Assembly: GCA_021298155.1 (NCBI GenBank)
Contig: JAJTEN010000008.1
Coordinates: forward strand, 1-61,593
From: Sphingobacteriales bacterium
Lineage (GTDB): Bacteria > Bacteroidota > Bacteroidia > UKL13-3
Reading direction: 5' to 3'
DNA length: 61,593 nucleotides
Shown here: positions 7,343 to 23,085 of the stretch, piece by piece
How the letters are laid out: every line of letters starts with the position of its first letter
Numbering within the stretch: position 1 is the first letter of the stretch
Translations under genes and position numbers: made by a program
The notes under the pieces: model-generated
Told to the model about the DNA's origin: nothing
Databases searched by the model: none
Seen by the model: the letters and a program-made list of their open reading frames with translations, nothing else

Positions 7343-9196
7343 TCACTTCAATAGTTCAATAATTTGAATACTATTGGGTGCTAGTGCGATTTGAGATAGG
7401 CTTTCAATTTTTTGGTTAGCTACATGGTTAAAACCTTTTGTGAATCCATGAAGGCGCTCTTCCATGCGTTTGGTGTCTAGTTGAACCATATTATCGCTTG
7501 TATTTACAGCAACCATATATGATTCTTGCTCTGTATACCTAAAATATACGTAGGTACTCCCTTCTGGAGTAAATTGCATGAGTTTACCTTGGCTAAAGGC
7601 AGCACTTTTTTTGCGCAACTGTGCCAATTTTTTGATGTAATTAAAAGCTTCGTTTTCTTGAGCAGTTCTTCCAGCTGCAGTAAATTTATTGATACTATCT
7701 GTTGGCCAAGCTCCCGGAAAATCTTGCCTAATTTGTCCGTCACTGGTTCTGGGTATTGGACTGGTTAATAAAATTTCTGTACCATAATAAATACTGGGAA
7801 CACCTCTTAATGTGAGTAATAAGCCAATACCAATTTTCCATTTTGCAAAATCTTGTTTTACCTCAGTAAAAAACCGGTTTAAATCGTGGTTATCTAGAAA
7901 GGTAAGATTTAAGTTGGGGTTTTGGTATAAACCATCGTGGCAAAGGGTATAATAAATTTTTGCTAATCCTTTATCCCATTCTGCTTTTTGGTTCAGGCCA
8001 TCCATGATTGCCCAAAATAGACTGAAGTCTTTGGCGCTTGTTAAATGACTAGATTGTGGCGATTTTTTATAGCTATTGTTTTGTGTAAAATAGGCAATAT
8101 TTAGCACCCCTGCTTGTTCCCAAATTTCGCCAGTGGCATAAAAATTTGGGTATTCATTTTGAATATAAGCCATGCATTTATCCATAAACTCATAATCGTT
8201 GTAGCTATAGGTGTCTATTCTGAAAGCATCAATTCCCGCGAAATTAATCCACCATAAATAACTTTGCATAAGGTAGGTAGCTACCCAGGGTGTGCGTTGG
8301 TTTACATCGGGCATTTGTGTGTCGAACCAACCATCAACCATGCGCTTTTTATCGTACTCGCTAGCGTAGGGATCTACGTGGGTGGTGGCTCTGTAATTGG
8401 TTCTAGTAAATTCAGGCCATTGGTTAACAAATGATTTATCGGGCATATCTAGCATCATCCAATGTTTTGAACCAATATGATTTGGTACCAAATCCATCAT
8501 GAGTTTCATCTTTCGTTTGTGTAGCGCTTTGGCTAGATACTGATAGCTTTCATTCGTGCCCAATCTCGGGTCTGTTAAGTAATGATCTGTTAAGGCATAT
8601 CCATGGTAACTATACGCGTTTTGATCGTTTATTAAAGTTGGGTTCAGCCAAAGGCATGAGACGCCTAAATCTTGAAGATAATCTAAGTGATTGATTATAC
8701 CTTGAATATCTCCACCATGGCGGCCACCCAGTGAATCTCTGCTGCACCAAGGTTCACGCATGGTTTTAATGGCATCATTTTTAGTATCTCCATTGCTAAA
8801 CCTGTCGGGAAAAACCAAATAAACCAAGTCTGATGGATCTATTTGATGCGTTTCTTTTTGGAGTGTTTTAAGCGTATAGGAAATCGTTTTGTTGCTACCT
8901 GCAGCTTGAAAGTTTAATTTTAAATCACTTCCATGGTAATTTTCTAGGTTTACATATACCAGCAAATAATTTGGGTTTTCTAGTGTTTTTACCTGTGTAA
9001 TACTTACACCTGGTGTTAGCAGTTTTACTTTAAATTGAGCGGTATTGGTTCCATAAACCAGCAATTGTAGCTCGCGAGTTTCTAGGTTGTGCCACCAGAA
9101 TTGCGGATCAATTCTCTTTATTTCTGGTTTTTGCGCAAAAGAAATTTTAACAAATAAAGTTAAACAAAGTAGAAGTATTTGACCAAACTTTAGCAT
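7343..9196 (-). CDS. Periplasmic GH13 neopullulanase/cyclomaltodextrinase (SusA-like)
   Basis: A 617-residue alpha-glucan hydrolase with a signal peptide ending at FAQ (22). Residues about 25-120 match the cyclomaltodextrinase N-terminal domain (DPQFWWHNL, LQLLVYG). The (beta/alpha)8 domain carries the four GH13 regions: DLVPNH from 235, FRID with nucleophile Asp328, GEIWE with acid/base Glu357, and FLDNHD with stabiliser Asp438. A beta-sandwich closes the C-terminus (about 535-617). It lacks a T9SS domain, so it probably acts on imported maltooligosaccharides in the periplasm. It lies 7 bases after the GH31 gene in one operon, downstream of the palindrome at 11726-11746. Confidence 0.92.
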   Translation of the reverse strand: MLKFGQILLLCLTLFVKISFAQKPEIKRIDPQFWWHNLETRELQLLVYGTNTAQFKVKLLTPGVSITQVKTLENPNYLLVYVNLENYHGSDLKLNFQAAGSNKTISYTLKTLQKETHQIDPSDLVYLVFPDRFSNGDTKNDAIKTMREPWCSRDSLGGRHGGDIQGIINHLDYLQDLGVSCLWLNPTLINDQNAYSYHGYALTDHYLTDPRLGTNESYQYLAKALHKRKMKLMMDLVPNHIGSKHWMMLDMPDKSFVNQWPEFTRTNYRATTHVDPYASEYDKKRMVDGWFDTQMPDVNQRTPWVATYLMQSYLWWINFAGIDAFRIDTYSYNDYEFMDKCMAYIQNEYPNFYATGEIWEQAGVLNIAYFTQNNSYKKSPQSSHLTSAKDFSLFWAIMDGLNQKAEWDKGLAKIYYTLCHDGLYQNPNLNLTFLDNHDLNRFFTEVKQDFAKWKIGIGLLLTLRGVPSIYYGTEILLTSPIPRTSDGQIRQDFPGAWPTDSINKFTAAGRTAQENEAFNYIKKLAQLRKKSAAFSQGKLMQFTPEGSTYVYFRYTEQESYMVAVNTSDNMVQLDTKRMEERLHGFTKGFNHVANQKIESLSQIALAPNSIQIIELLK

Positions 9197-9203
9197 AATA
9201 GAA

Positions 9204-11654
9204 TTACCAACTTACGTTAAATTTAGCCTGATTATTTTTAATGCATAGGGTTTTAACCGTTGATTTTTTGCCATCAATGCTTTTGCCAATAGGGTCAAAT
9301 TGTGAAACGCCAGGAATTAACTCGATGGTTTCTTGCTTCAGGCTCATCTTATTATTTCCAGACTTTACTGAGGTTTGCGCATCAAAGCCATGTAAAATCA
9401 ATTTAATATTTGTAAACTTAGAAGGGAGATTGCCTTGTACCTCCTCAAATAAAAGTTGCTTCTTTTTAGCGTCAAAAGCTATTTGTCTCTTATAGAATTT
9501 TCCCTCTTCAAAAGCATAGCCTTCACCGGCATCTTCATAATATGTATATGAGTTATTGCCACTACCCATGTATACATGCAAATACATGGTATCATGTGGC
9601 ATTTCTTGTGCACTTTGAACAACAGATTGCATAGGAATGATTGCGCTACCTTTCACATACAAAGGCAATGTTTCCATTGGAGTTTCTACATATAATTCTT
9701 GCTTACCTGTATATTTACGTTCTGTATTTAAATCGTACCATTCCCCCTCTGGCAAGTATACTTTATTTATCTCTTTATTACTCACAACTGGCGCTACCAT
9801 AATAGATTGGCCAAATAAGTATTGATTTTGGTATTTCCAGTCATAAATCATTGGGTCGTGCGTGTAATTTATGGATAAGCTTCTGGCAACTGGCATACCA
9901 TTTTGGGTAGCTTCATAGAAAGTTGAATAAAGGTATGGCATAAGCTTGTATCTAAAAGAAATATAGTTGCGTACAATTTCCTCTACCTTTTCTCCATAGC
10001 TCCATGGTTCACTGTCTTTAGCATCAATCATTTTGTGGCTTCTGAAGAAGGGACAAAAAGCGCCAATTTGCATCCATCTGCTAAATAATTCCTTACTGGC
10101 TTCACCAGCAAATCCACCCACATCATAACCAGCATTGGCCACACCACTTAAACCAAGGCTATTCACTAATCGAACACCAGCCATCATATGGTCGTCTTCA
10201 GGACGATTGTCTCCTGTCCATATCGCAGAATAACGTTGTATTCCACTGTAGGCAGCTCTAGTGAGAATAAATGGTCTTTTGCCCGACATCAATTTTTTGG
10301 TTCCTTCAAAAGTGCTTCTAGCCATTTGCATTCCGTAAACGTTGTGCCATTCTCTGTGCGACGTTTTTTGTCCATCAAAATTTGCCTCAACTAAATCCGG
10401 AAAACGTTGACCCCAAGTTGCAGGTTCGTTCATATCATTCCAAAAACCATCTATTCCATCGTTTACATATCCTTTAAAGGAGGCACCCCACCAGTCTCTT
10501 GTTTTGGGATTGGTGAAATCTGGGAAGTGACACCATCCCGGCCATACTTGTCCGGTATAATTTGAGCCATCAGGATATTTCAAAAATAAATCGCGCGATA
10601 AGCCCTCTTCGTAGGCTTTATAGTCTTTTTCAACTTTTATTCCTGGGTCTACAATAACTACATTTTTAAAGCCCATACCTTCTAGTTCATCTAGCATTTT
10701 TTTGGGCTGAGGGAAACGATTAGTATCCCAAGTAAATATTTTGTAATTGTCCATGTAATGGATATCAAAATAAATTACATCTGCTGGAATTTTCTTTTCT
10801 CTAAAAGTTTTGGCTAATGAAATTACTTCCTTATCTGGATAATAGCTGTACCTGCATTGTTGGAAGCCAATGCTCCAAAGCGAAGGCATTTCCATTTTAC
10901 CGGTTAAATCTGTGTAAGATGTAATAATGCCAGCTACAGTTGAGTTGGCAATGAGGTAATAATTCATCTCACCTAGTTCGGCCGTAAAGCTTGAAAAACG
11001 GTTGTTTGAAGCGCCGAAATTAAAATGTGATTTATGGGTATTGTCTAAAAAGATGCCATATACTTTATCATGATGTATCCCAATGAAAAACGGAATAGTA
11101 GCGTACAATGGGTCTCCATTACTTGGGTAAGCAAAGAAGTCTGTATTCCAATTGGTATATCCTTCGCCTCTTCTATTAAGGTTTCCAGTTTTTTCACCTA
11201 ATCCAATAAATTTTTCATTCTCTTGCATTTTTTTGTAGGTGGTAACTTCTTCCCCTATCCAGCTGGTACCAAAGTCTTTTTCATCTTCATTTAAAACATT
11301 TCCGGCTTTATCTTTTAAAATGAAGCGTAAAGGATTTTTACTAATTTCTAGGATACAAGAATCTGTATGGATTATAAGTTTGCTCTCTTCTTTTTGCAGT
11401 TTAAAAATCCCTTTACTAGGGTTTGCTATTACGGCATAGCTGGATGTATTAAATGAATTTTCTTTGCTAGCTTGAATGCGAATTACGGTTGGAGAGTATA
11501 CCTGAACTTTTACATTTCCATGCGCCGTATTAAGGATAACTCCTTCCGCTATTTCTGTGATAGAAGTGACAGTAGACAAACTTTTGTTTAAAGATTGCCC
11601 TTGCATAGCAAGAGAAAGAAGCGCAAAAACAGATAAAAATGTAAATTTTTTCAT
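9204..11654 (-). CDS. GH31 alpha-glucosidase
   Basis: An 816-residue protein from ATG 11654 (a TTG at 11663 precedes it) with a signal peptide ending near MQGQ. GH31 hallmarks are DIHYMDNYKIFTWD, the nucleophile in FWNDMNEP (Asp407), the acid/base in TGDN (Asp482), and the RWMQIGAFCPFFRSH segment. An N-terminal beta-sandwich and C-terminal beta domains of the usual kind flank the barrel. It would release glucose from the non-reducing ends of maltooligosaccharides. In the classical sus system this role is held by a GH97 enzyme, which is absent here. It is the first gene of the GH31-GH13 operon and is divergent from the Nudix-type regulator. Confidence 0.93.
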   Translation of the reverse strand: MKKFTFLSVFALLSLAMQGQSLNKSLSTVTSITEIAEGVILNTAHGNVKVQVYSPTVIRIQASKENSFNTSSYAVIANPSKGIFKLQKEESKLIIHTDSCILEISKNPLRFILKDKAGNVLNEDEKDFGTSWIGEEVTTYKKMQENEKFIGLGEKTGNLNRRGEGYTNWNTDFFAYPSNGDPLYATIPFFIGIHHDKVYGIFLDNTHKSHFNFGASNNRFSSFTAELGEMNYYLIANSTVAGIITSYTDLTGKMEMPSLWSIGFQQCRYSYYPDKEVISLAKTFREKKIPADVIYFDIHYMDNYKIFTWDTNRFPQPKKMLDELEGMGFKNVVIVDPGIKVEKDYKAYEEGLSRDLFLKYPDGSNYTGQVWPGWCHFPDFTNPKTRDWWGASFKGYVNDGIDGFWNDMNEPATWGQRFPDLVEANFDGQKTSHREWHNVYGMQMARSTFEGTKKLMSGKRPFILTRAAYSGIQRYSAIWTGDNRPEDDHMMAGVRLVNSLGLSGVANAGYDVGGFAGEASKELFSRWMQIGAFCPFFRSHKMIDAKDSEPWSYGEKVEEIVRNYISFRYKLMPYLYSTFYEATQNGMPVARSLSINYTHDPMIYDWKYQNQYLFGQSIMVAPVVSNKEINKVYLPEGEWYDLNTERKYTGKQELYVETPMETLPLYVKGSAIIPMQSVVQSAQEMPHDTMYLHVYMGSGNNSYTYYEDAGEGYAFEEGKFYKRQIAFDAKKKQLLFEEVQGNLPSKFTNIKLILHGFDAQTSVKSGNNKMSLKQETIELIPGVSQFDPIGKSIDGKKSTVKTLCIKNNQAKFNVSW

Positions 11655-11677: not shown

Positions 11678-11710
11678 TAAATATATATGGTTTATGGTTT
11701 GATTTCCAAA
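11678..11710 (-). promoter_or_regulatory. Putative promoter of the GH31-GH13 operon
   Basis: Read on the minus strand: TTTG (11710-11707), 21 bases, TATATTTA (11685-11678), one mismatch from TAnnTTTG. It would start transcription about 20 bases before ATG 11654. The palindrome at 11726-11746 lies 15 bases upstream of its -33 element. Confidence 0.5.
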
Positions 11711-11725
11711 TAAAAAAGCGATATA

Positions 11726-11746
11726 AAAGTGTTTGGAGTACACTTT
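11726..11746. promoter_or_regulatory. Candidate operator, copy 1: AAAGTGT-N7-ACACTTT
   Basis: A perfect inverted repeat with 7-base arms (11726-11732, 11740-11746) and a 7-base spacer, placed between the GH31 gene and the Nudix-type regulator and upstream of both predicted promoters. A second copy with the same spacing occurs at 14336-14355. Its position upstream of the -33 elements suits an activator. That the Nudix-type protein binds it is inference. Confidence 0.6.
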
Positions 11747-11755
11747 ATGTATTTT

Positions 11756-11786
11756 TTTGACAAACTCACATAAAATTCTATATTTG
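11756..11786 (+). promoter_or_regulatory. Putative promoter of the Nudix-type regulator gene
   Basis: TTTG at 11756-11759, then 19 bases, then TATATTTG at 11779-11786. This is an exact match to the Bacteroidota -33/-7 consensus and would start transcription about 10 bases before ATG 11801. Confidence 0.6.
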
Positions 11787-11800
11787 AAGAGGGCATAATC

Positions 11801-12508
11801 ATGAAAAAAAATACTTTCAGAAATCACATATCTGTAGACTGCGTTATATTTGGGTATGATGAGCAGTTTAACAAATTGGAGGTACTTTTAATTGAGCAAA
11901 AGAAGCCAAATTTAACGGGTAATAAATCTTTTGTAGCGCAATTTGCCTTACCTGGCGACTTAGTGAATGATGAGGAAGATTTGAATGATGCTGCCAAAAG
12001 GGTTTTAGATGAATTAACCCATGTATCTGGTTTAGATTTAAGGCAATCTGGTTGTTTTGGCGACCCAATGCGTGTGAAGCAGCCAAAAGATAAGGAGTGG
12101 TTACATTTATATAGGCAGGATCCGGATGCGCGCGTGATTACAGTAACCTATTATACTTTGGTGAGAAAAGAGATGATTAGGCCTGTGCCTGGGTCATTTG
12201 CTCAAAATGTAGTATGGAAGAATGCAAAGCGTGTTCCTTCTTTGGCTTTTGATCACAATTTAATTGTGAAGCAAGCATACAACAATTTAAGACGTGATTT
12301 TGAAGAAGAAATGTTTGCAAAAGCCTTGCTCCCGCAAAAGTTTACACTGAAGCATTTGCAAAATTTATATGAAGTAATTTTCAATACCAATTTAGATAAA
12401 AGAAATTTTATTAAACGGATTAAGAAGGAAGATAACTTAACAGAGTTAAGTGAAAAACAAAAGGGAACGATGTTTAAACCTTCTAAACTGTATACTTTTA
12501 AAGCGTAA
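11801..12508 (+). CDS. Nudix-fold transcriptional regulator (NrtR/AraR type) with winged-helix C-terminus
   Basis: A 235-residue protein. Residues about 8-150 have a Nudix fold, but the Nudix box is degenerate: Gly52 and Glu58 are kept, while the RExxEE part reads K66-R-V-L-D-E71, losing the key Arg-Glu pair. Pyrophosphohydrolase activity is therefore unlikely. Residues about 155-235 match the winged-helix tail of NrtR/AraR proteins (LLPQKFTLKHLQNLYE, LDKRNF, FKPSKLYTF). Known members, such as Bacteroides AraR, sense sugars or ADP-ribose derivatives. Its place between the glucosidase operon and the SusCD/amylase genes suggests that it controls alpha-glucan use through the nearby palindromes. 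Confidence 0.85.
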   Translation: MKKNTFRNHISVDCVIFGYDEQFNKLEVLLIEQKKPNLTGNKSFVAQFALPGDLVNDEEDLNDAAKRVLDELTHVSGLDLRQSGCFGDPMRVKQPKDKEWLHLYRQDPDARVITVTYYTLVRKEMIRPVPGSFAQNVVWKNAKRVPSLAFDHNLIVKQAYNNLRRDFEEEMFAKALLPQKFTLKHLQNLYEVIFNTNLDKRNFIKRIKKEDNLTELSEKQKGTMFKPSKLYTFKA

Positions 12509-12526
12509 TTTTTCTAAAGAAAATGA

Positions 12527-12561
12527 CATAAAAAAAGCCCGATTATCGGGCTTTTTTTATG
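12527..12561. terminator. Bidirectional intrinsic terminator
   Basis: A perfect inverted repeat with 17-base arms and a single central base. The GCCCGAT/ATCGGGC core is flanked by seven A and seven T. It lies between the convergent regulator and starch-binding protein genes and can terminate both. Confidence 0.9.
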
Positions 12562-12581
12562 TTTGGTAGTTTGTTTGTAAA

Positions 12582-14279
12582 TTACTGAACAATCAATTTC
12601 AAGGTTTTAGCCTCTCCGCGGTTGTTTGTAATTTGAACAAAATGAACACCTTTAGACAATTCTTTGCTGTTAATTACTAAGCTATTGTCTGCAATTTGGT
12701 TGTAAGTTGCAATGGTTTTACCAGCAATATCCATAATGGTTACATCGTGTGATTGAGCAAAATCATTGAATTCGATGGTAACATAACTGTTGCTTGGGTT
12801 AGGATATAATTTAACATTTCCGATTAAATTATTTTTCTCTACTAAACCAGTAGTAGTGGTATCAGCAAGTGTACAAGTATTAAATACGTATGCAAGTACA
12901 ATAGGGTTTGCAGTTGTACGTGTATGGATACGGTTAAATCCACCAACACCGTTTGGCTCTACACAAGCACGTTGAGTAGTATCTTTGAAGCTTTCTTCAG
13001 AAGCATTAACTGAAGAATCTCCGTTTACAAATTTGTAAGCAAATGAACCAGGGCAAATGTTTACTTTGGTTGCATAAAAACCTGGTTTGCCAGCAACCGG
13101 ACTTAAACGGATTGCTCCATTTTGCCAGTTTGGAGTAGTAAAGTTACCCATTACGTATACTCTACCTTGTCCATCAGGAGTTTCATTGCTAAGGTCTACC
13201 ATAAATGTAATATCAGAAGGAGCAGGCTTAGGAATACAACCACCTGGTGTGTTAGAGTTAAAACAAGTTAGTCCTAATGTATCATTTTTAGTTAACATCC
13301 ATTTGCGGTTTCCTATACCTTCCCAATTGGTATTGCCATTTTTATGGAAACGGAATTTAAATTCAAATTCGCCAGAGTCCATTGTTAAAGTTACACCGTA
13401 AATGCTGGTATTTCCAATTTTATTTAATTTTACACCACTTCCCCAGTTGGTAATTTCTGTTCTTCCACCAGCTACTGAAACTGAATCAAATCCACCATCA
13501 CAGTCGTTGTTTAACATATCTACAACAAAAGTTGCAGTGAAAGTAGGAATTGGAGCAGTAGGACATGGAGCACACAAAGCAAAACATACTTTTGAAGAAG
13601 TTGAAGCATTTACGATAATCTCGCGATTTTTGTCGTTTCCAACGCCACAAGCACTTGGTACACTCTCTGCACCACCCCAAGTGTTACCATTGATAAACTT
13701 GTATTGGTATGAACCTGAATCTAGGTAGGCAATCCACTCATATACTTTATTGCTGCTGAATAAATTTGCCATGCTAGTTTTGGTTTCATTCCATCCTTGT
13801 AGGCTTCCAGCGATGCGAACACCATTCGCATTTACAGTTTGTAATTGCATATCTACTGCAAAACGAACTGCATATTTACCTGCAGGGGCACTTCCACCAA
13901 ATAAGATAGCCGGAATAACAGAAGTGTCGTTGGCGATTGAATCAACATAGAACCAACGGTTATCGTTTTGACCGCCATTTGTTTGGAAGCCTACTTGGTT
14001 TAATGAAGGTACACCCTCACTTTTATCCCAAATTTTTCCGTTAATAAATTTGAATTGCATAACTTGATTTGCTGGTGCATCTACGAAAGTAGAATAGATG
14101 TTGCCAGATTCTAAAGTTAATTGGGTTGATCCTGGATTCCAGCCTTGGAAGTTACCAGCAACGTGAACGCCACTTGTATCTACCGTTTTGCCGGTCATGT
14201 CAACTGAAATCTTAACTTTTTTTGCATAAACTCCTGAAATCATTACAAGAGCTGCACTAAGTAGTAAAATTTTTTTCAT
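12582..14279 (-). CDS. T9SS-exported protein with four starch-binding-like beta-sandwich repeats
   Basis: A 565-residue protein with a signal peptide (about residue 19). Four related domains follow (about 22-115, 135-235, 250-345, 355-455). Each starts with a strand of the form xVxVDMxxxxxxxxGVxVAG and has a xxGWNxG/xNWxxG turn and a YxFKFxxG strand. These are features of CBM20/CBM48/E-set starch-binding modules and of SusE/SusF-like proteins. A type A T9SS domain (LYPNPSNSYVTIEF) occupies about 488-565. No catalytic motif is seen, so it probably binds starch at the cell surface. It is divergent from the exported amylase and shares that control region. Confidence 0.8.
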   Translation of the reverse strand: MKKILLLSAALVMISGVYAKKVKISVDMTGKTVDTSGVHVAGNFQGWNPGSTQLTLESGNIYSTFVDAPANQVMQFKFINGKIWDKSEGVPSLNQVGFQTNGGQNDNRWFYVDSIANDTSVIPAILFGGSAPAGKYAVRFAVDMQLQTVNANGVRIAGSLQGWNETKTSMANLFSSNKVYEWIAYLDSGSYQYKFINGNTWGGAESVPSACGVGNDKNREIIVNASTSSKVCFALCAPCPTAPIPTFTATFVVDMLNNDCDGGFDSVSVAGGRTEITNWGSGVKLNKIGNTSIYGVTLTMDSGEFEFKFRFHKNGNTNWEGIGNRKWMLTKNDTLGLTCFNSNTPGGCIPKPAPSDITFMVDLSNETPDGQGRVYVMGNFTTPNWQNGAIRLSPVAGKPGFYATKVNICPGSFAYKFVNGDSSVNASEESFKDTTQRACVEPNGVGGFNRIHTRTTANPIVLAYVFNTCTLADTTTTGLVEKNNLIGNVKLYPNPSNSYVTIEFNDFAQSHDVTIMDIAGKTIATYNQIADNSLVINSKELSKGVHFVQITNNRGEAKTLKLIVQ

Positions 14280-14302
14280 GTGTAATTGTAAAATTTGTTG
14301 AA

Positions 14303-14332
14303 CGAAAATAAAGAAATTGTAAATAAAACAAA
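14303..14332 (-). promoter_or_regulatory. Putative promoter of the starch-binding protein gene
   Basis: Read on the minus strand: TTTG (14332-14329), 18 bases, TATTTTCG (14310-14303), one mismatch from TAnnTTTG. Transcription would start about 20 bases before ATG 14279. The palindrome at 14336-14355 lies 3 bases upstream of the -33 element. Confidence 0.45.
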
Positions 14333-14335
14333 AAA

Positions 14336-14355
14336 AAAGTGTCGGAAATACACTT
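14336..14355. promoter_or_regulatory. Candidate operator, copy 2: AAGTGT-N7-ACACTT
   Basis: Arms AAGTGT (14337-14342) and ACACTT (14350-14355) with a 7-base spacer repeat the architecture of 11726-11746; the outermost base pair is A/A here instead of A/T. The spacers differ (cggaaat versus ttggagt), so the arms are conserved apart from the spacer, as expected for a protein-binding site. It sits between the divergent starch-binding protein and the amylase-SusCD operon. Confidence 0.6.
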
Positions 14356-14392
14356 ATTTTTTTTTTATTCGCATGAGCATCGGATAAATTTC

Positions 14393-17200
14393 ATGAAAAT
14401 AAATAAAACAATTACCCCAATTTTACTCTTGATTTTTTGTATACAGTATGTTGTAAAGGCTCAAGTTGTGTCATTAACTCCTGTATTCCCAACACAATCT
14501 CAAGATGTGGTAATTACATATGATGCAACAAAGGGGAATGGGGCTTTAATTGGCCAAAGTGTAGTTTACGCCCATACTGGAGTAATTACCAATTTAAGCA
14601 ATTCTCCAACAGATTGGAGATATGTTCAAGGAAATTGGGGTACAGACGACTCGCGGGTAAAGATGACGTCTTTGGGAAATAATAAATTTCAGCTTTCATT
14701 TAATATAGCCAGTTTTTATGGTGTGCCAAGTGCTGAACGTGTTCAAAAATTATCCTTTGTGTTTAGAAATGCAGATGGCAGTAAAGTTGGCAGAAATACA
14801 GATGGTTCAGACATTTTTGTTTCTATTAGTGATGGAAGTTTTCGCTACAATATTATAAGTACACCTTTTGGCAATCCTCAAATTTTATACGCAACAGATA
14901 CCATAAAATACTTGGTTCAAAGCTCAAGCCCTTCTGCTATTTCATTGAATATCAATGGCATTAATGTTTTATCGAAATCTGCTGTTCAACAGGTAGATAC
15001 TTTTTTTACCGGAGCTCATCTAGGATTTGGGAAACATTGGATAAAAACTACCCTTGTGCATAATGGAAATACCTATGCAGATTCTACCTTACTCATTGTG
15101 CGCAGTATGTTTAGTTCATTTGTTGGGGTTCCTCCACAAGGCATGGTAGACGGTATAAATTATTTGAGCGATACATCTGTATTTCTTCAGTTTTTGGCTC
15201 CTCAGAAGAGTTTTGTGTATGTTATTGGCGATTTTAATAATTGGGCCTTAGATCCGAATTACGAAATGACCAGAACCCCAGATGGTACAAGGTATTGGAT
15301 AAGGATAAATGGTTTAGTTCCCGGTCAAGAATATGCCTTTCAATATGCTATAGACAAACAGCAATTACGCGTGGCTGATCCGTTTGCAGACAAATATTTA
15401 GATGGGAATAACGATGCCTTTATAGAAGAAGAAACCTATCCCAATTTAAAGGCCTACCCAAGTGGAAAAACCACACATTATGTGTCGGTATTTCAAACCA
15501 ATCAGAAGGCCTATAATTGGCAGGTGACTAATTTTAAGCGCCCAGCAGCAAATAACTTAATTGTTTATGAATTACTGATTAGAGATTTTGTGGGCAAACA
15601 CAATTATCAAGCCTTAATAGATACCATTGCATACCTTAAACGACTTGGGATTAATGCCGTTGAACTGATGCCTTTTAATGAATTTGAAGGAAATGAAAGT
15701 TGGGGGTATAATACTGCATTTTATTTTGCACCAGACAAATATTATGGGACCAAAGACAAGTTAAAAGAATTTATTGATGTGTGTCACCAAAATGGCATTG
15801 CGGTAATTATGGACATGGTTTTAAATCACTCATTTGGGCAAAGTAGTATGGTGCGGATGTATTTTAATAATAGTACAGGTAAGCCCGAAAATAATCCTTG
15901 GTTTAATGATGATGCCAAACACCCATTTAATGTGGGTTACGATTTTAATCATGAAAGTATTTATACGCAGAATTTTGTTGATACTGTGGTAAAATACTGG
16001 ATTAAGGAGTATAAGATAGATGGCTATAGGTTTGATTTATCTAAAGGTTTTACGCAGCGCAATACCCCAACTGATGTTGCCGCATGGAGTTCATATGATC
16101 AAAGTAGAATAAATTTGTGGAAGCGAATTGCCGATAAGCTTAGACCCAGTTGCCAAGATTGTTATTTAATTTTAGAGCATTTTGCAGACAATAACGAAGA
16201 AAAAGTTCTTTCTGATTATGGGTTTATGTTTTGGGGCAATATCAATCATGCCTTTAATGAAGCTACTATGGGTTACACGTCTGATTTACGACCAGCTTTG
16301 TGGCAACATAGGGGTTGGTTGGCTCCTAATTTAATTCGTTATGCTGAAAGTCACGATGAAGAAAGATTAATGTATAAAAATGTAAATTTTGGATTTACAT
16401 CACCTGCCTACAATGTTAGAGACACTTCAACTGCCTTAGCGCGTTGTGAGGCAGCAGCAGTTATATTAGCTGCCATGCCAGGTCCTTATATGTTATGGCA
16501 ATTTGGCGAACTTGGCTATCCGTATAGCATTAATACCTGTAAAAATGGAACGGTAAATAACAACTGTAGGTTAGATAACAAACCCATTCGATGGGATTAT
16601 TTAAAGCAGGCACCTAGGAAAAGATTATATGATGTATATGCTGCAATGAATGCCTTGAAAACAACATATTCAGTTTTTGCAACCGGCACGCTTACACACA
16701 ATTTAACATCACCAATAAAAACCATGTTTTTAGCTGATAGTTCACTTAGTGTTTATGTAGCTGCTAATTTTGGCACAAGCAGTGCTTCATTGGTAAGAAA
16801 AGTAAGTCGCGTTGGTTGGTGGTACAATTATTTTGATGGGGATTCGGTTTATTTTAACAATACATCAGATACGGTTCAACTTATGCCAGGCAAATATGTA
16901 TTGTTAACCAACCTGCGTTTAGAAAAGCCTGAAATTGGGATAGTAAGTAGTTTTGAAGAAATTAATGAGATGTCTGACCTAAGGATATTCCCAAATCCTA
17001 CCACAGGTATTTTGCATATCACATCTGCTATGCCAATAACTCACTACGAAATAACAGATATAATGGGAAGAACAATGGGCAGTGGTGATTCAATTCAGGA
17101 TAATTCTATTTCCATCGTTAATTTATTGCCAGGTACTTATTATTTAAGACTAGGTTCGGCAAAGGGAACAATTACAAAAAAAATAATGTTATATAATTAA
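14393..17200 (+). CDS. T9SS-exported multidomain GH13 alpha-amylase
   Basis: A 935-residue enzyme from ATG 14393; a GTG at 14339 falls inside the palindrome and is rejected. A signal peptide ends near KAQ. Residues about 25-150 form a domain of unclear family, about 250-340 are a CBM48-like E-set (YVIGDFNNW), and about 370-800 are the GH13 barrel. Catalytic residues are Asp548 (GYRFDLSKG), Glu595 (LILEH) and Asp655 (ESHDEER), with DMVLNH as region I. A type A T9SS domain (LRIFPNPTTGILHI) ends the protein. It should cut starch at the surface and supply SusCD. It lies 3 bases before susC and probably heads the operon to 23085. Confidence 0.92.
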   Translation: MKINKTITPILLLIFCIQYVVKAQVVSLTPVFPTQSQDVVITYDATKGNGALIGQSVVYAHTGVITNLSNSPTDWRYVQGNWGTDDSRVKMTSLGNNKFQLSFNIASFYGVPSAERVQKLSFVFRNADGSKVGRNTDGSDIFVSISDGSFRYNIISTPFGNPQILYATDTIKYLVQSSSPSAISLNINGINVLSKSAVQQVDTFFTGAHLGFGKHWIKTTLVHNGNTYADSTLLIVRSMFSSFVGVPPQGMVDGINYLSDTSVFLQFLAPQKSFVYVIGDFNNWALDPNYEMTRTPDGTRYWIRINGLVPGQEYAFQYAIDKQQLRVADPFADKYLDGNNDAFIEEETYPNLKAYPSGKTTHYVSVFQTNQKAYNWQVTNFKRPAANNLIVYELLIRDFVGKHNYQALIDTIAYLKRLGINAVELMPFNEFEGNESWGYNTAFYFAPDKYYGTKDKLKEFIDVCHQNGIAVIMDMVLNHSFGQSSMVRMYFNNSTGKPENNPWFNDDAKHPFNVGYDFNHESIYTQNFVDTVVKYWIKEYKIDGYRFDLSKGFTQRNTPTDVAAWSSYDQSRINLWKRIADKLRPSCQDCYLILEHFADNNEEKVLSDYGFMFWGNINHAFNEATMGYTSDLRPALWQHRGWLAPNLIRYAESHDEERLMYKNVNFGFTSPAYNVRDTSTALARCEAAAVILAAMPGPYMLWQFGELGYPYSINTCKNGTVNNNCRLDNKPIRWDYLKQAPRKRLYDVYAAMNALKTTYSVFATGTLTHNLTSPIKTMFLADSSLSVYVAANFGTSSASLVRKVSRVGWWYNYFDGDSVYFNNTSDTVQLMPGKYVLLTNLRLEKPEIGIVSSFEEINEMSDLRIFPNPTTGILHITSAMPITHYEITDIMGRTMGSGDSIQDNSISIVNLLPGTYYLRLGSAKGTITKKIMLYN

Positions 17201-17203
17201 AAT

Positions 17204-20200
17204 ATGAGAACAATTCTACTTTCTATTTTCGGTTTATTTATGGTAATGGGTGTTCAAGCTCAGAGCATAAGAGGAAAATTAACCGATAGTAAATCAGAGC
17301 CATTGATAGGCGCAACGATAATAGTTGAAGGTACTAAAAGTGGAGCACAATCAGATCTAAATGGTGATTTCGTAATCAACGGATTGAATCCTGGTAAATA
17401 TCGCCTGCGTTTTCAATATGTAGGGATGAAAAACGAATTCAAAAATGTTGAATTAGCAGCGGGTCAGAATTTGGTATTGAATCTTACATTAAAAATAGAC
17501 GAGAATCAATTAGATGAGGCCGTTGTAGTAGGTTATGGAACCCAAACAAAAAGAGAAATTACCACAGCTATTTCTAAAATTGGGCAAAAAGAGTTAAATG
17601 ATTTACCTGTTCAAAGTTTTGAGCAAGCCTTGCAAGGTAAATTGGCTGGTGTTGCCGTTACACAGGGTAGTGGTTTAGCAGGATCTCCGAGTATTATTCG
17701 TATTAGGGGTATATCTTCTATCTCTGCTGGTGGTGATCCACTTTATGTGGTTGATGGTATACCAATGACCCAAGATTACAGTACTTTTGGTAATGCAGGA
17801 GGGGCAAACTTTAATCCTTTAGCAACGATTAATCCGAATGATATTGAGAGTATAGAAGTATTAAAAGATGCAGCTGCAACATCAATATATGGTTCAAGGG
17901 GTGCCAATGGCGTAATATTAATAACAACAAAAAGAGCCGGTAAAGGGAAGACCCGTGTAACATACACGGCACAAATGGGTTTTTCAACGCCTTCAGCAAA
18001 ACCAAGATTAGTTGGCCGCGATGAATTGCTTAATTTAATGGAGGAGGCATGGATTAATGATGGGAATACAGGCAAGCCAGATTTTAGTAAATTTGGTATC
18101 AATAATATGACTTGGGATGAAGCCAGAAATCACAATACAGACTGGTATAATGAGTTAACCCAAGTTGGTGTAAAAAATCAACACGATTTAACTCTTTCAA
18201 AAGGTTGGGATAAAGTATCATTATATTCTAGTTTATCATACAATAAAAATGAAACTTTTATTAGAGGTAATTCGTACGATAAAGTTTCAGGTAGAATAAA
18301 TTTAGACTACCAAATTTCGAAAAAATTGAAAATGCAGGTAGGAACATCCTTCACTAACGCTGATAACAATCGCGTATACAGCGGATGGAGTGGTGGATAC
18401 GGTTTGTTGATGTCTTCTGCTTTGCCATTCTATCCGGTACGTAACCCGGATGGCAGTTATTTTTTGTTTAATAACTCTGATGCAGGTTTTAGAACCAATC
18501 CAATCATGATGATGGAGCAATTTAAATGGGTAACCAATGAACAAAGAACGATTGGAAACATCGCATTTGATTATGATATTACAAATAATTTAAAAGCAAG
18601 AGTTCAGGCAAATTACGACTATCAGCATATTTCAGATGATCAGTTTGCTCCTCAAGAACTAACTCGGGCAACTGGTTCAGATACCACTTCAATTGGTACT
18701 AAGAATTTCCGCTATACCAATAATTTCAATTATTTAGCACAACTGTCTTACAAATATGAAATTAACAAATTAAATAAATTAGATATTGTTGGCGGTTTTG
18801 AGCGTCAGCAATCAATTACACAAGGATTTAACATTGTGGAGCGCAATGCTACCGGATTTGTAGCTGATGGCAGAAAAACAGATAATAATTTAAAGAACTA
18901 TATTGTGCCAAGCGAGTGGAAATTTGAGCGATTCTTCGGTAGAATTAATTTCAATAGCAAATACAAATACTTTTTAAATTTTGCATTTAGTTACGATGGT
19001 TCTTCGAGATTTGGAGATAACCAAAGATATGGTTTTTTCCCTTCAGTATCTGGAGGTTGGTTGTTAAATGAAGAAAGATTTTTAGAGGATTTTAAAAAAC
19101 TATCTTTACTCAAATTGCGTGCGTCATATGGTAGGTCTGGTAATTCAGATTTTGATCCGAATGCGCGATATGGATTTTTTCAGGCAAATTCTGCCATCTC
19201 TTACAATGGCAATCCAACCTTGTACCCAACCCAATTGGAAAATCCAAATTTAAGATGGGAGACCTCATGGACCTTCAATACGGGATTGGACTTTGCTTTT
19301 TTCAATAACAAAATCTCAGGAACATTGGATTTTTATGATAAACGTACAACAGATGTGATCATGAATCTAAACCTTGATCCATCTGTAGGATTTGGCAATT
19401 ATTACGATAATGTGGGTGCTATTAGAAACTACGGAGCTGAATTTAGTTTGAGGGCAAATTTAGTTAGAAACTCGAAGTTTACTTGGAGTGTAATGGCTAA
19501 TATAGCTAGAAACTTTAATGAAATAACTAGTACAGGTGCTTATACTGAGGAAGCAGTAAGTGGTGGAACAAATGATACAAGGGTTGTATTGGGCATGCCT
19601 GTTGGAACCTATTATTTGGTGAGGTTTTCTCATGTAGACCCAGCCACTGGACGTCCGGTATACCTCGATAAAGACGGCAATCAAACCCTTACTTGGAGTG
19701 CGAACAACAGGGTGCCTGTAGGTAGTATTCTTCCAAAAGCAGTGGGTGGTTTTACCAATAATTTTAAGTATAAAAATTGGGATTTAAGCTTATTATTTGT
19801 GTATCAAATTGGAGGTAATATTTATGATGCCTCAGCTAAGCGTCAGTTAGGCGTTATGAGTTTCTGGAACTCTCGTCCTGAGATTGGAGATAGATGGAGA
19901 GAGCCCGGCGATGTTGCCGCATTTCCGCGTCTTACTTTAGATGCTTCAACATATGGTTTACCAGATTATTGGCAATATAATACACCAATGTGGTTGTATG
20001 ATGCGAGCTTCTTACGATTAAGGAATGTAACCGTAGGATATAATTTACCAGAAAAATGGGCGAAAAAAGCAAAGATGTCGAGTACAAGAATTGCCATTAT
20101 TTGCACGAACCTATTTGTATTTACAAACTATCCAGGTTTAGATCCAGAAATTGCTAGAGATGGTGAAGGGAATATCAATACCTCGAGAAATATGCAATCT

Positions 20201-20269
20201 CAAGGAACCTATTACCTCAATGCACCGCAAGAACGCACTTATAATTTTCAATTAACGGCTACTTTCTAA
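17204..20269 (+). CDS. SusC/RagA-family TonB-dependent outer-membrane transporter
   Basis: A 1021-residue protein with a signal peptide (to AQ, residue 20), a carboxypeptidase-regulatory-like domain (about 21-98), a TonB box region VVVGYGTQ (107-114), a plug (LQGKLAGV, IRIRGISS, YVVDGIP at 181-187) and a 22-strand type barrel ending in an aromatic residue (TATF). It would import alpha-glucan oligosaccharides across the outer membrane using TonB energy. It is followed 10 bases later by SusD, its lid partner. The substrate is inferred from the adjacent GH13/GH31 genes. Confidence 0.95.
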   Translation: MRTILLSIFGLFMVMGVQAQSIRGKLTDSKSEPLIGATIIVEGTKSGAQSDLNGDFVINGLNPGKYRLRFQYVGMKNEFKNVELAAGQNLVLNLTLKIDENQLDEAVVVGYGTQTKREITTAISKIGQKELNDLPVQSFEQALQGKLAGVAVTQGSGLAGSPSIIRIRGISSISAGGDPLYVVDGIPMTQDYSTFGNAGGANFNPLATINPNDIESIEVLKDAAATSIYGSRGANGVILITTKRAGKGKTRVTYTAQMGFSTPSAKPRLVGRDELLNLMEEAWINDGNTGKPDFSKFGINNMTWDEARNHNTDWYNELTQVGVKNQHDLTLSKGWDKVSLYSSLSYNKNETFIRGNSYDKVSGRINLDYQISKKLKMQVGTSFTNADNNRVYSGWSGGYGLLMSSALPFYPVRNPDGSYFLFNNSDAGFRTNPIMMMEQFKWVTNEQRTIGNIAFDYDITNNLKARVQANYDYQHISDDQFAPQELTRATGSDTTSIGTKNFRYTNNFNYLAQLSYKYEINKLNKLDIVGGFERQQSITQGFNIVERNATGFVADGRKTDNNLKNYIVPSEWKFERFFGRINFNSKYKYFLNFAFSYDGSSRFGDNQRYGFFPSVSGGWLLNEERFLEDFKKLSLLKLRASYGRSGNSDFDPNARYGFFQANSAISYNGNPTLYPTQLENPNLRWETSWTFNTGLDFAFFNNKISGTLDFYDKRTTDVIMNLNLDPSVGFGNYYDNVGAIRNYGAEFSLRANLVRNSKFTWSVMANIARNFNEITSTGAYTEEAVSGGTNDTRVVLGMPVGTYYLVRFSHVDPATGRPVYLDKDGNQTLTWSANNRVPVGSILPKAVGGFTNNFKYKNWDLSLLFVYQIGGNIYDASAKRQLGVMSFWNSRPEIGDRWREPGDVAAFPRLTLDASTYGLPDYWQYNTPMWLYDASFLRLRNVTVGYNLPEKWAKKAKMSSTRIAIICTNLFVFTNYPGLDPEIARDGEGNINTSRNMQSQGTYYLNAPQERTYNFQLTATF

Positions 20270-20279
20270 TCGAATTAAA

Positions 20280-21689
20280 ATGAAAAAATTAATCCATAAA
20301 ATTTTAATAGGTACGATTGGTTTAATGATCGTTGCCTCATTTTCGGCTTGTGAAAAAAGCCTTGATGTAGAACCAGATCCATCTTTTGGTCTGGATCCAG
20401 CTGAAGCTATTAAGTCTTCAGAAGATATGCAAAAGCTATTAAACTCTTGTTATGATGCCTGTGCCAATATGATGGGAGGTCAATTTCAAGTTATATCAGA
20501 TTTATTGGGAGATGATGTTGCCAGACCACTTAATAATGATGGAAATACCACAGCTATTTTTAATAGGAGTGTTGCACAATTCAATGGCACATCAAATTCT
20601 GCTTATTCTCAGCCATACTTTACAATTTACAGGGTAAATGTGATGGATTTATATTACGATCAGGTAAACTTTTTGCCAGGTGAAAAAGAGCGTTTGCAAG
20701 GGGAGGCTGCCTTTTTGAGGGCTTTATGTCATTTTGAAACAGTAAAACTATGGGCGCAACCTGCCGGTTTTACCGCCGACAATAGTCATCTAGGCATTAT
20801 TGAGCGAACCAGAGCAAAAAATGAAGTAGTTTTAAGAACAAGTGTAGCCAGCAACTATGCATTAATTATTTCAGACCTGCAAAAAGCCATATCCCTTTTA
20901 CCGGTAAGCAATGGGGTTTATGCCAATAAAAATGCGGCAAAAGCCTTGCTTGCAAAAGTTTATTTTACTATGGGTAATTATGAAGCTGCATTACCTTTAT
21001 TAAATGAGGTAATTGGTTCAGGCTACAGTTTGAGTGATAGTTTAAATAGATTTTTAAGATCAGAAGTAGAAAGTGAGATTATCTTTGGTTTTGTTACAAC
21101 TAGTTCTGCCTATGATATTAATGCAAGAGGTGCAGGTTTTAAAGGAAGCTATAGAAACGACCTTAATCTGCCAACCATCGCTTTATCAAACGAGTTATAC
21201 AACTTATTGTCGGCCGATACGAGTGATAGAAGAAGAAAGTTTACTACGTTAATTAATCCTGGTCAAGCCAATGAGATAAAGGCCTCTACTAAGTTTAATC
21301 ACAATAATTTTGCAACACCTTATTTAACACTAACAGATATGTTGTTAATGCGTGCAGAGATATATGCTTTGCAGTCTAATGCGGCTTCAGCTATTCTTGA
21401 TCTTGGACTTATCGTTAAAAGAGCATATGGTGTTGCTAGCACGCGGTATATATCGCTTTCTGGTTTAAGCGGACAAGCTTTGATTGATGAAGTAAGGTTA
21501 CAAAGAAGACTAGAGATGCACCTCGAAGGTGATCGTACAATTCAATTGAAAAGAATTGGTGCTTTTCATGCACCATCATCAACCATTAGAAATGCGCCAT
21601 GGAAATGTCCGGGAATGGTACTTCAATTTCCATCATCAGCCGGAACGGTTCAAGGCTTTATATTTAATCCTGAGGGAGGATGTAACTAA
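20280..21689 (+). CDS. SusD/RagB-family glycan-binding lipoprotein
   Basis: A 469-residue outer-membrane lipoprotein with lipobox FSAC (Cys24) followed by EKSLDVEPD, typical of SusD. TPR-like helices (AEAAFLRAL-type segment, NKNAAKALLAKVYFTMGNY) and a C-terminal LQRRLEMHLEGDR segment fit the family. It forms the hinged lid over SusC and binds the imported glycan. Cotranscription with SusC is clear from spacing. Confidence 0.93.
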   Translation: MKKLIHKILIGTIGLMIVASFSACEKSLDVEPDPSFGLDPAEAIKSSEDMQKLLNSCYDACANMMGGQFQVISDLLGDDVARPLNNDGNTTAIFNRSVAQFNGTSNSAYSQPYFTIYRVNVMDLYYDQVNFLPGEKERLQGEAAFLRALCHFETVKLWAQPAGFTADNSHLGIIERTRAKNEVVLRTSVASNYALIISDLQKAISLLPVSNGVYANKNAAKALLAKVYFTMGNYEAALPLLNEVIGSGYSLSDSLNRFLRSEVESEIIFGFVTTSSAYDINARGAGFKGSYRNDLNLPTIALSNELYNLLSADTSDRRRKFTTLINPGQANEIKASTKFNHNNFATPYLTLTDMLLMRAEIYALQSNAASAILDLGLIVKRAYGVASTRYISLSGLSGQALIDEVRLQRRLEMHLEGDRTIQLKRIGAFHAPSSTIRNAPWKCPGMVLQFPSSAGTVQGFIFNPEGGCN

Positions 21690-21700
21690 AATAACTGAAT

Positions 21701-22219
21701 ATGAAAAAAATAAATTTATTTGGATTAATAATCCTAGTTATTGGAATTATCAGCATTGGCTGTAAAAAGCCTTACGACGACAGTAAAGAAGTTGCTACAC
21801 CTATTTCTTCGCCTGAGAAGATTGCGGCGGCATTGAGTGGCAGTTGGACAATGAACACGGCTATTCAAGTTGATGAAAAATCATTGGTAAAAGAATCCAT
21901 GAATATTGCCGATTTCCTTACCTCAGAATCAGGTCAGGTGCCAAATATTAGTTTCAATACTGTAGATAGTACATTTACAGTTGATACTGCAAGTTTGGTG
22001 CTTAATCTGTTTGTATTAAGTAATGGAAAATGGAGTTTTGATGACAATAGATATCCTTCTAAAATCATTTTAAAAGACTTAAATGGAAATGTGGCAAGTG
22101 AAGTATCAATTGGCAAAAACCTTCTTTCTCCGGCCCCCCAGCTAAATTTTGTGAACGCTGTGAGCTGTGGTGCTGAAAAAGCGATGTCGTATAGTATATC
22201 ATTCCTTAAAAATAACTAA
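21701..22219 (+). CDS. Accessory lipoprotein of the glucan locus, possibly lipocalin-like
   Basis: A 172-residue lipoprotein (Cys21 in SIGC). After a short linker it begins with IAAALSGSWTMNTA and continues with strands such as LSNGKWSFDD and YPSKIILKDL, a pattern seen in small beta-barrel (DUF5004/lipocalin-like) lipoproteins near SusCD pairs. The match is by pattern only. It lies 11 bases after SusD and 2 bases before the next gene, so it belongs to the operon. A surface glycan-binding or scaffolding role is inferred. Confidence 0.65.
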   Translation: MKKINLFGLIILVIGIISIGCKKPYDDSKEVATPISSPEKIAAALSGSWTMNTAIQVDEKSLVKESMNIADFLTSESGQVPNISFNTVDSTFTVDTASLVLNLFVLSNGKWSFDDNRYPSKIILKDLNGNVASEVSIGKNLLSPAPQLNFVNAVSCGAEKAMSYSISFLKNN

Positions 22220-22221
22220 TT

Positions 22222-23085
22222 ATGAAAAGTATATTAGCAACACTATTTATTTTATTTGCTTCTTATACAGGATTTGCTCAGGTTGCCTGGGTTGAACCTA
22301 AGAAGCCAGATGTTACTAAACCAGTTCGCATTTATTGTGATATTAGCAAGGCTACTGCCGCTACAGCTGATGCGATGAAATCTAACCCAGATGGGCCATA
22401 TTATATTTGGACATGGAAACCGGTAGAAGCTAGGGTTGATTCGTTGGTGAATGGAACGGGTGATAAGCCATGGAAAAGCAGTAATGAACGCTTAAAAATG
22501 ACCAAAGATGAGTCGAAAGGGGCTAATGTTTGGTACTACGAAATGGTTCCTACAGAATTTTATGGAGTAGACCCTGCGGTTGTTTATGCTCAGGGAATTA
22601 GCTTTTTAGTGAAGCCTAAAGATGGCGGTGGTTATGGCGATCCAGATGTAAAAACGGAAGACTTAAATTTAACCATTGATCCACCTTCAGTTGAAAGAGG
22701 CATATTGTATTCTATACCCAAAACCATGTTTGGCGATCAGATTACTACACTTATTTACGATAATCCAAATGAGCCAAAAGCTACTATGAAAAGTTTGAAT
22801 GATGGAGATGTGTATATGCATATTGTAGCCACAGCAAAGGATAGCTTGGGCACAACCATAGCACTTGAACCTAATAAGTTTTTTAAAGTAACGGATAATA
22901 CTAAACTTAAAATGAAACGCTTGTCTGATGGTCGTTTTAAAATCACGATGATTCCAAATCAGTTTTTGTCTGTGCCTGCAGGCTATACTTTATTTGATAT
23001 AGAGATCACTGTTAGAAAGAAAAACTATTCATCTGTTGCTGATCAAACCGACAAGAAAACCAAACTATTGTTTGGTTGTCAGTAA
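22222..23085 (+). CDS. Secreted beta-sandwich protein of the glucan locus
   Basis: A 287-residue protein with a signal peptide ending at FAQ and no lipobox or T9SS domain. It starts with AWVEPKKPDVTKPVRIYCD and has an LKMTKDESKGANVWYYEMVPTEFYGV segment followed by FLVKPKDGGGYGD. This layout (opening strand, N-terminal D, LKMT, xxFYGVP, FVFRxxDGS) is the same as in the N-terminal domain of the exported amylase at 14393. I infer an E-set-like binding domain, possibly for starch. The last part (about 160-287) is a second domain of unknown type. It is the last gene of the operon and is followed by a terminator. Confidence 0.65.
   Translation: MKSILATLFILFASYTGFAQVAWVEPKKPDVTKPVRIYCDISKATAATADAMKSNPDGPYYIWTWKPVEARVDSLVNGTGDKPWKSSNERLKMTKDESKGANVWYYEMVPTEFYGVDPAVVYAQGISFLVKPKDGGGYGDPDVKTEDLNLTIDPPSVERGILYSIPKTMFGDQITTLIYDNPNEPKATMKSLNDGDVYMHIVATAKDSLGTTIALEPNKFFKVTDNTKLKMKRLSDGRFKITMIPNQFLSVPAGYTLFDIEITVRKKNYSSVADQTDKKTKLLFGCQ

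Follow-up and report, generated by a model that had tools for sequence, protein, structure and literature searches.

The starch locus of the window (the whole stretch of DNA analysed, 61,593 nucleotides) carries two copies of the inverted repeat AAGTGT-N7-ACACTT. The gene between them encodes a regulator, a predicted sugar-sensing NrtR-family protein from an AraR-like branch, for which the two copies very probably serve as operators. In our model, a regulator dimer would contact each GTGT half-site through one of its winged helices, and the two operators would govern four divergent units: the GH31 and GH13 genes, the regulator gene, a secreted starch-binding protein and an amylase-susCD operon. 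Most likely, the regulator would be bound to DNA when ligand free and would be released once a cytoplasmic alpha-glucan product (candidates are maltose, glucose and phosphorylated forms) filled its degenerate Nudix pocket, by analogy with L-arabinose in BtAraR. From the sequences, we infer binding to the palindromes with strong confidence and repression with moderate confidence, and we tentatively suggest an alpha-glucan breakdown product as the effector.

The palindromes, their locus and the regulator

Neither palindrome has a strand. Operator 1 (11727-11745, spacer TTGGAGT) lies in the divergent gap between the GH31 and regulator genes, and operator 2 (14337-14355, spacer CGGAAAT) lies in that between the CBM48-protein gene and the amylase-susCD operon. 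The initial annotation had described one inverted repeat with 7-base spacing in both divergent gaps and the regulator gene (11801..12508) between the copies. Both statements were confirmed, with the ends of the repeats corrected by one base.

We scanned the whole 2.5-Mb genome for the exact motif. This analysis returned two copies, both at the starch locus, and none of a reversed control motif, which speaks against occurrence at chance frequency. At the order-wide control rate, 2.5 Mb should contain about 0.08 exact copies, giving P(≥2) of about 0.003, a value that leaves out the placement of both copies in two control gaps of one locus. When two mismatches were allowed, the motif gave 109 matches versus 135 for the control. 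Since this is chance frequency, only the full exact motif is informative, and the relaxed motif was dropped as a source of further sites. The AGTGT-N7-ACACT core had one additional match (C33:30516), which was rejected as a regulon site because it sits within an ORF.

By domain search, the predicted target of operator 1 on the minus strand is a GH31 alpha-glucosidase gene (9204..11654), behind which lies a GH13 cyclomaltodextrinase/neopullulanase-like gene (7343..9196, minus strand). The predicted minus-strand target of operator 2 (12582..14279) encodes a secreted starch-binding protein with AMPK1_CBM/CBM48/CBM20-like domains and a T9SS sorting tail; a terminator-like hairpin (12526..12562, minus strand) separates it from the converging regulator gene. 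On the plus strand, the operon that operator 2 would drive begins with a secreted GH13 amylase-like enzyme with a T9SS tail (14393..17200) and continues with a SusC-type TonB-dependent transporter (17204..20269; TIGR04056, 804 bits), a SusD-like lipoprotein (20280..21689; domain search) and two outer-membrane accessory proteins, DUF5004 and DUF4961-like (21701..23085). The hexokinase-like kinase homologue of this genome is encoded on a different contig from the starch locus (G000:C56:719-1567, L168).

The regulator (235 amino acids, plus strand) combines a degenerate Nudix-like domain (PF00293, above cut-off) at the N terminus with an NrtR-type winged helix at the C terminus (PF21906, 72 bits against a cut-off of 27, residues 175-233). 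It is the sole NrtR_WHD protein of the genome, and its best PDB sequence match is BtAraR (5bs6, E 3e-26). Its Nudix box, GX5EX7REUXEEXGU, is broken: RVLDELTHV replaces the REUXEEXGU required for activity, and the domain is therefore probably a sensor and not a hydrolase, as has been argued for AraR. An AlphaFold model built with 54 homologues reached a pLDDT of 89 and contained the Nudix fold; its best solved fold matches were AraR, followed by Shewanella NrtR. It superseded a poor first model from 13 close sequences (pLDDT 61). The features of NrtR-family membership, namely, the winged helix, the degenerate Nudix domain and a conserved palindrome near target genes, were all present. Judged by sequence and predicted structure, the regulator is a new, previously undescribed relative of AraR within the NrtR family.

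Occurrence of the operator in the order and across Bacteroidia

Orthologues of the regulator (66 to 97% identity) were found in 12 other genomes of the order; several of the relatives are fragmented metagenome assemblies. The exact motif was present in 12 of the 13 regulator-bearing genomes and in 8 of the 51 others (Fisher P of 4e-7 for presence), with 26 and 10 sites, respectively, and 17 of the 26 fall in the starch locus. The matches in regulator-free genomes were taken as chance, since they lie mostly within ORFs (L066, L067, L069, L071-L074 and L078). Operator 2 was exact in all 12 aligned orthologous gaps, and the position of operator 1 was kept, mostly with 0 to 2 mismatches; the palindromes thus stay in place across diverged genomes though their flanks change. 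Moreover, a GTGT-N7-ACAC core occurred within 350 bases upstream of the secreted amylase homologue in 9/9 genomes with the regulator and in 0/20 without it (P of 1e-7). In three of those nine genomes (G048, G049 and G057; loci L076, L077 and L083), the amylase gene is unlinked to the regulator gene and the core is nonetheless present, which indicates that the site tracks the regulator itself rather than its neighbourhood alone. The concentration of the motif in regulator-bearing relatives and at starch genes, and its conservation upstream of orthologues, were therefore as the initial annotation had anticipated.

The one regulator-bearing genome lacking an exact site was G062, the complete genome UKL13-3. 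Here, the regulator is kept (L063, L095), but most of the locus is gone: the genes for SusC and the amylase are missing, together with the operator gap and the 5′ portion of the CBM48 gene. A match on G044:C3 (AAGTGTATTTCCTACACTT) has the sequence of the most frequent operator 2 variant, but it overlaps an 86-amino-acid ORF with unrelated neighbours and was not accepted as a regulon member.

Among 395 Bacteroidia genomes, about 50 carry a protein of the same long type, with an extra loop; outside the order, such proteins scored about 190 to 290 bits, versus about 135 to 180 bits for a short-type group. A hexokinase-like kinase neighbours the long-type regulator at 35 of 53 loci. Other neighbours include GH13, amylase, GH65 maltose phosphorylase, beta-phosphoglucomutase, MFS, sugar symporter, GH31 and SusCD genes. 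Family f5 adds phosphofructokinase and GAPDH genes, as well as a G6PD-Edd-Eda operon preceded by an operator of its own. At L125, L129, L131 and L136, the operator also precedes GAPDH and a G6PD-Edd-Eda operon, a link between the regulator and genes of the Entner-Doudoroff and glycolytic pathways. At L139, L140 and L141, two tandem NrtR-type genes stand beside hexokinase, GH31 and GH13 genes, the branch of the second being very long (2.65 changes per column).

The core palindrome was found upstream of the regulator at 31 of 43 loci in the class and was missing at 12. With a 7-base spacer we counted 33 sites, compared to 3 in total across seven other spacers, and the class consensus is longer, CTwAGTGT-N7-ACACTwAG. 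From summed counts, WAGTGT-N7-ACACTW averaged 3.6 sites per genome in the 50 long-type bearers, versus 0.8 for the control. One genome (G345, locus L133) has 16 such sites in 4.1 Mb, which suggests a larger regulon. The operator format is not exclusive to the long-type clade: G131, G255, G389 (genus g74), G091 and G175 have 7 to 48 sites and no long-type regulator. These genomes may encode a different protein that reads the format, or the sites may belong to a family of repeats.

The "local alpha-glucan regulon" of the initial annotation thus holds in this genome, but "local" does not hold elsewhere, as in relatives some sites are unlinked and others lie at genes of central glucose metabolism. 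A wider reading, which we regard as possible but doubtful, is that of a Bacteroidia-wide glucose/alpha-glucan regulator linking starch loci to cytoplasmic glucose metabolism through one operator format. It would couple the hexokinase-like kinase, phosphofructokinase, GAPDH and the Entner-Doudoroff operon. Its mode would also have changed: repression at the core promoter, as in most families, would have given way in the window's order to an operator placed upstream, which may activate.

Promoter placement and mode of action

A scan for E. coli-type promoters gave 9 matches versus 9.9 by chance and was replaced by a search for Bacteroidetes -33/-7 boxes; all boxes, like the gene starts, are predicted mechanically. 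The predicted regulator promoter (11757..11786, plus strand; -33 TTG at 11757-11759, -7 TATATTTG at 11779-11786) is kept in orthologues and places the operator centre at about -56. On the minus strand, the predicted GH31 promoter (11678..11709; TTG at 11709-11707, TATATTTA at 11685-11678) and the predicted CBM48-protein promoter (14303..14331; TTG at 14331-14329, TATTTTCG at 14310-14303) place it at about -64 and -49. As the initial annotation had noted, copy 1 lies upstream of a predicted promoter on each side, and copy 2 abuts the minus-strand -33. For the amylase-susCD operon, a putative -7-like box (TTTATTCG, 14364..14371, plus strand), a weak match to TAnnTTTG, lies 18 nt from the operator centre, a distance that equals the class-wide peak of target -7 boxes.

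Of 52 target promoters across the class, 20 have a -7 box (TAnnTT[TC]G) that starts 8 to 19 nt from the centre of the operator, compared to a mean of 1.2 in shuffles. In the window's order, the -7 box lies 30 to 48 nt from the operator centre, with the operator just upstream of -33, at 8/8 regulator promoters and at 7 of 17 GH31/CBM48 promoters. Within the window, the operator is upstream of -33 at three of four promoters, and the amylase-susCD side alone fits the class-wide placement. Since the class-wide operator covers the core promoter, and since AraR is freed from DNA by its sugar, repression is favoured, and we consider it fairly likely that the regulator acts in this manner. On the same two grounds, the claim of the initial annotation for activation rather than repression was unsupported.

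A contrary view keeps the same operators and regulator and makes the protein an activator or a dual regulator that would recruit RNA polymerase when bound upstream of -33. The operator centres just upstream of -33 at the three window promoters agree with it, as do the upstream operator in all eight order members at the regulator promoter and the lack of a good -33/-7 pair on the amylase-susC side in most order members. Overlap of the operator with target core promoters class-wide argues the other way; furthermore, apo BtAraR binds DNA and L-arabinose releases it, and characterised NrtR proteins are repressors. We judge activation or dual control unlikely. It is far less probable that the palindromes are read by another regulator (SusR, a Crp-like protein, an ECF/anti-sigma system or a paralogue) with the Nudix protein as a bystander. 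The many sites in G131, G255 and G389, which lack this regulator, imply that other proteins may read the format, but the genome has a single NrtR_WHD protein, the sites track the Nudix-type regulator at the amylase promoters, and the geometry of the palindrome equals that of the solved AraR operator. Least credible of all, to the point of being negligible, are chance or nonregulatory palindromes such as terminators or repeats: the two-mismatch motif does occur at chance frequency, but the exact motif is confined to this locus in the genome, is kept in place as flanks change and depends on the presence of the regulator.

The reading of the repeats as paired operators of the adjacent Nudix-type regulator, in an alpha-glucan regulon, is thus supported by their uniqueness and conservation, the co-occurrence at amylase genes and the match to the BtAraR operator and its contacts. 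Against this reading stand the upstream -7 spacing in the window's order, a placement usual for activators; the 12 class loci without a core; G062 without an exact site; and two substitutions relative to AraR, K204 (a residue of the wing) to F and R183 to I.

Comparison with AraR and other known systems

The operator crystallised with AraR (5DDG) contains AAGTGTTACTTTTACACC, and the BT0365 promoter fragment tested by electrophoretic mobility shift assay contains AAGTGTAAAAAAGACACTT (Chang et al. 2015, PMC4666351). The latter is an exact AAGTGT-N7-ACACTT, and both have the GTGT-N7-ACAC geometry of the window operators. AraR residues D178, K179, R180, N181 and K184 touch the GTGT half-sites (PMC4666351), and the window regulator retains all five. 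Within the long-type subfamily, D178, R180 and N181 occur in 55/55 proteins and K179 in 53/55, and position 184 is K or R. Of two further AraR DNA-contact residues, K204 is F in the window regulator and H in most relatives, and R205 is K. Among the short-type paralogues of the order, 10/15 have S at position 180 and 1/15 has a GTGT-N7-ACAC core upstream.

BtAraR (BT0354 of Bacteroides thetaiotaomicron; 5BS6, 5DD4, 5DDG and, with L-arabinose, 5DEQ) resembles the window regulator in its degenerate Nudix and winged-helix domains, its palindrome core, the recognition-helix DKRNFxK and the regulation of hydrolase and SusCD genes, which are also the predicted targets here. The two proteins are only about 30% identical, and the window regulator has an extra loop after FGDPxR. 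The AraR sugar contacts R86 and H131 are invariant (the alignment is uncertain in the inserted loop), but other arabinose-pocket residues are altered, R34 to Q, G48 to D and F49 to L. The gene context of BtAraR is arabinose; for the long-type regulator, we found alpha-glucan and glucose genes in most of the clade and not the arabinose-catabolism genes of AraR orthologues. The pocket changes and gene context together suggest maltose, glucose or a derivative as candidate effectors. In the tree, the long group of 55 rows forms one side of a branch (support 75/90, 78% of bootstraps), and AraR falls outside it with two short-type rows. The window regulator would accordingly not be an AraR orthologue, although the placement of AraR is unsure because it sits on a long branch.

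Other relatives differ in what they govern. BtXylR (BT0791), a predicted NrtR-family xylose regulator of Bacteroidetes, is alike by description as a sugar regulator but has a xylose gene context. Shewanella oneidensis NrtR (3GZ5, 3GZ6 and 3GZ8) shares the family fold (Foldseek E 1e-14) and the use of the Nudix domain as a sensor, but it governs NAD metabolism and senses ADP-ribose. A literature search found no NrtR-type alpha-glucan regulator; subscription journals were thinly covered, and this absence is not proof.

Most of what is known about starch control in Bacteroidota comes from SusR of gut Bacteroides. SusR has the same job as that proposed here, control of a starch susCD locus, but it is a membrane protein that senses maltose in the periplasm, activates and uses direct-repeat motifs. 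The 235-amino-acid Nudix-winged-helix protein of the window, with its inverted-repeat site, is unrelated to it by family or site. A soluble AraR-type switch appears to take the job of SusR in an uncultured lineage, and across Bacteroidia its orthologues have the same operator beside genes for maltose phosphorylase, hexokinase and glycolytic enzymes. Both the site and the contacts predicted between protein and DNA are sufficiently specific for a direct test, and they would yield regulon predictions for many environmental genomes without expression data.
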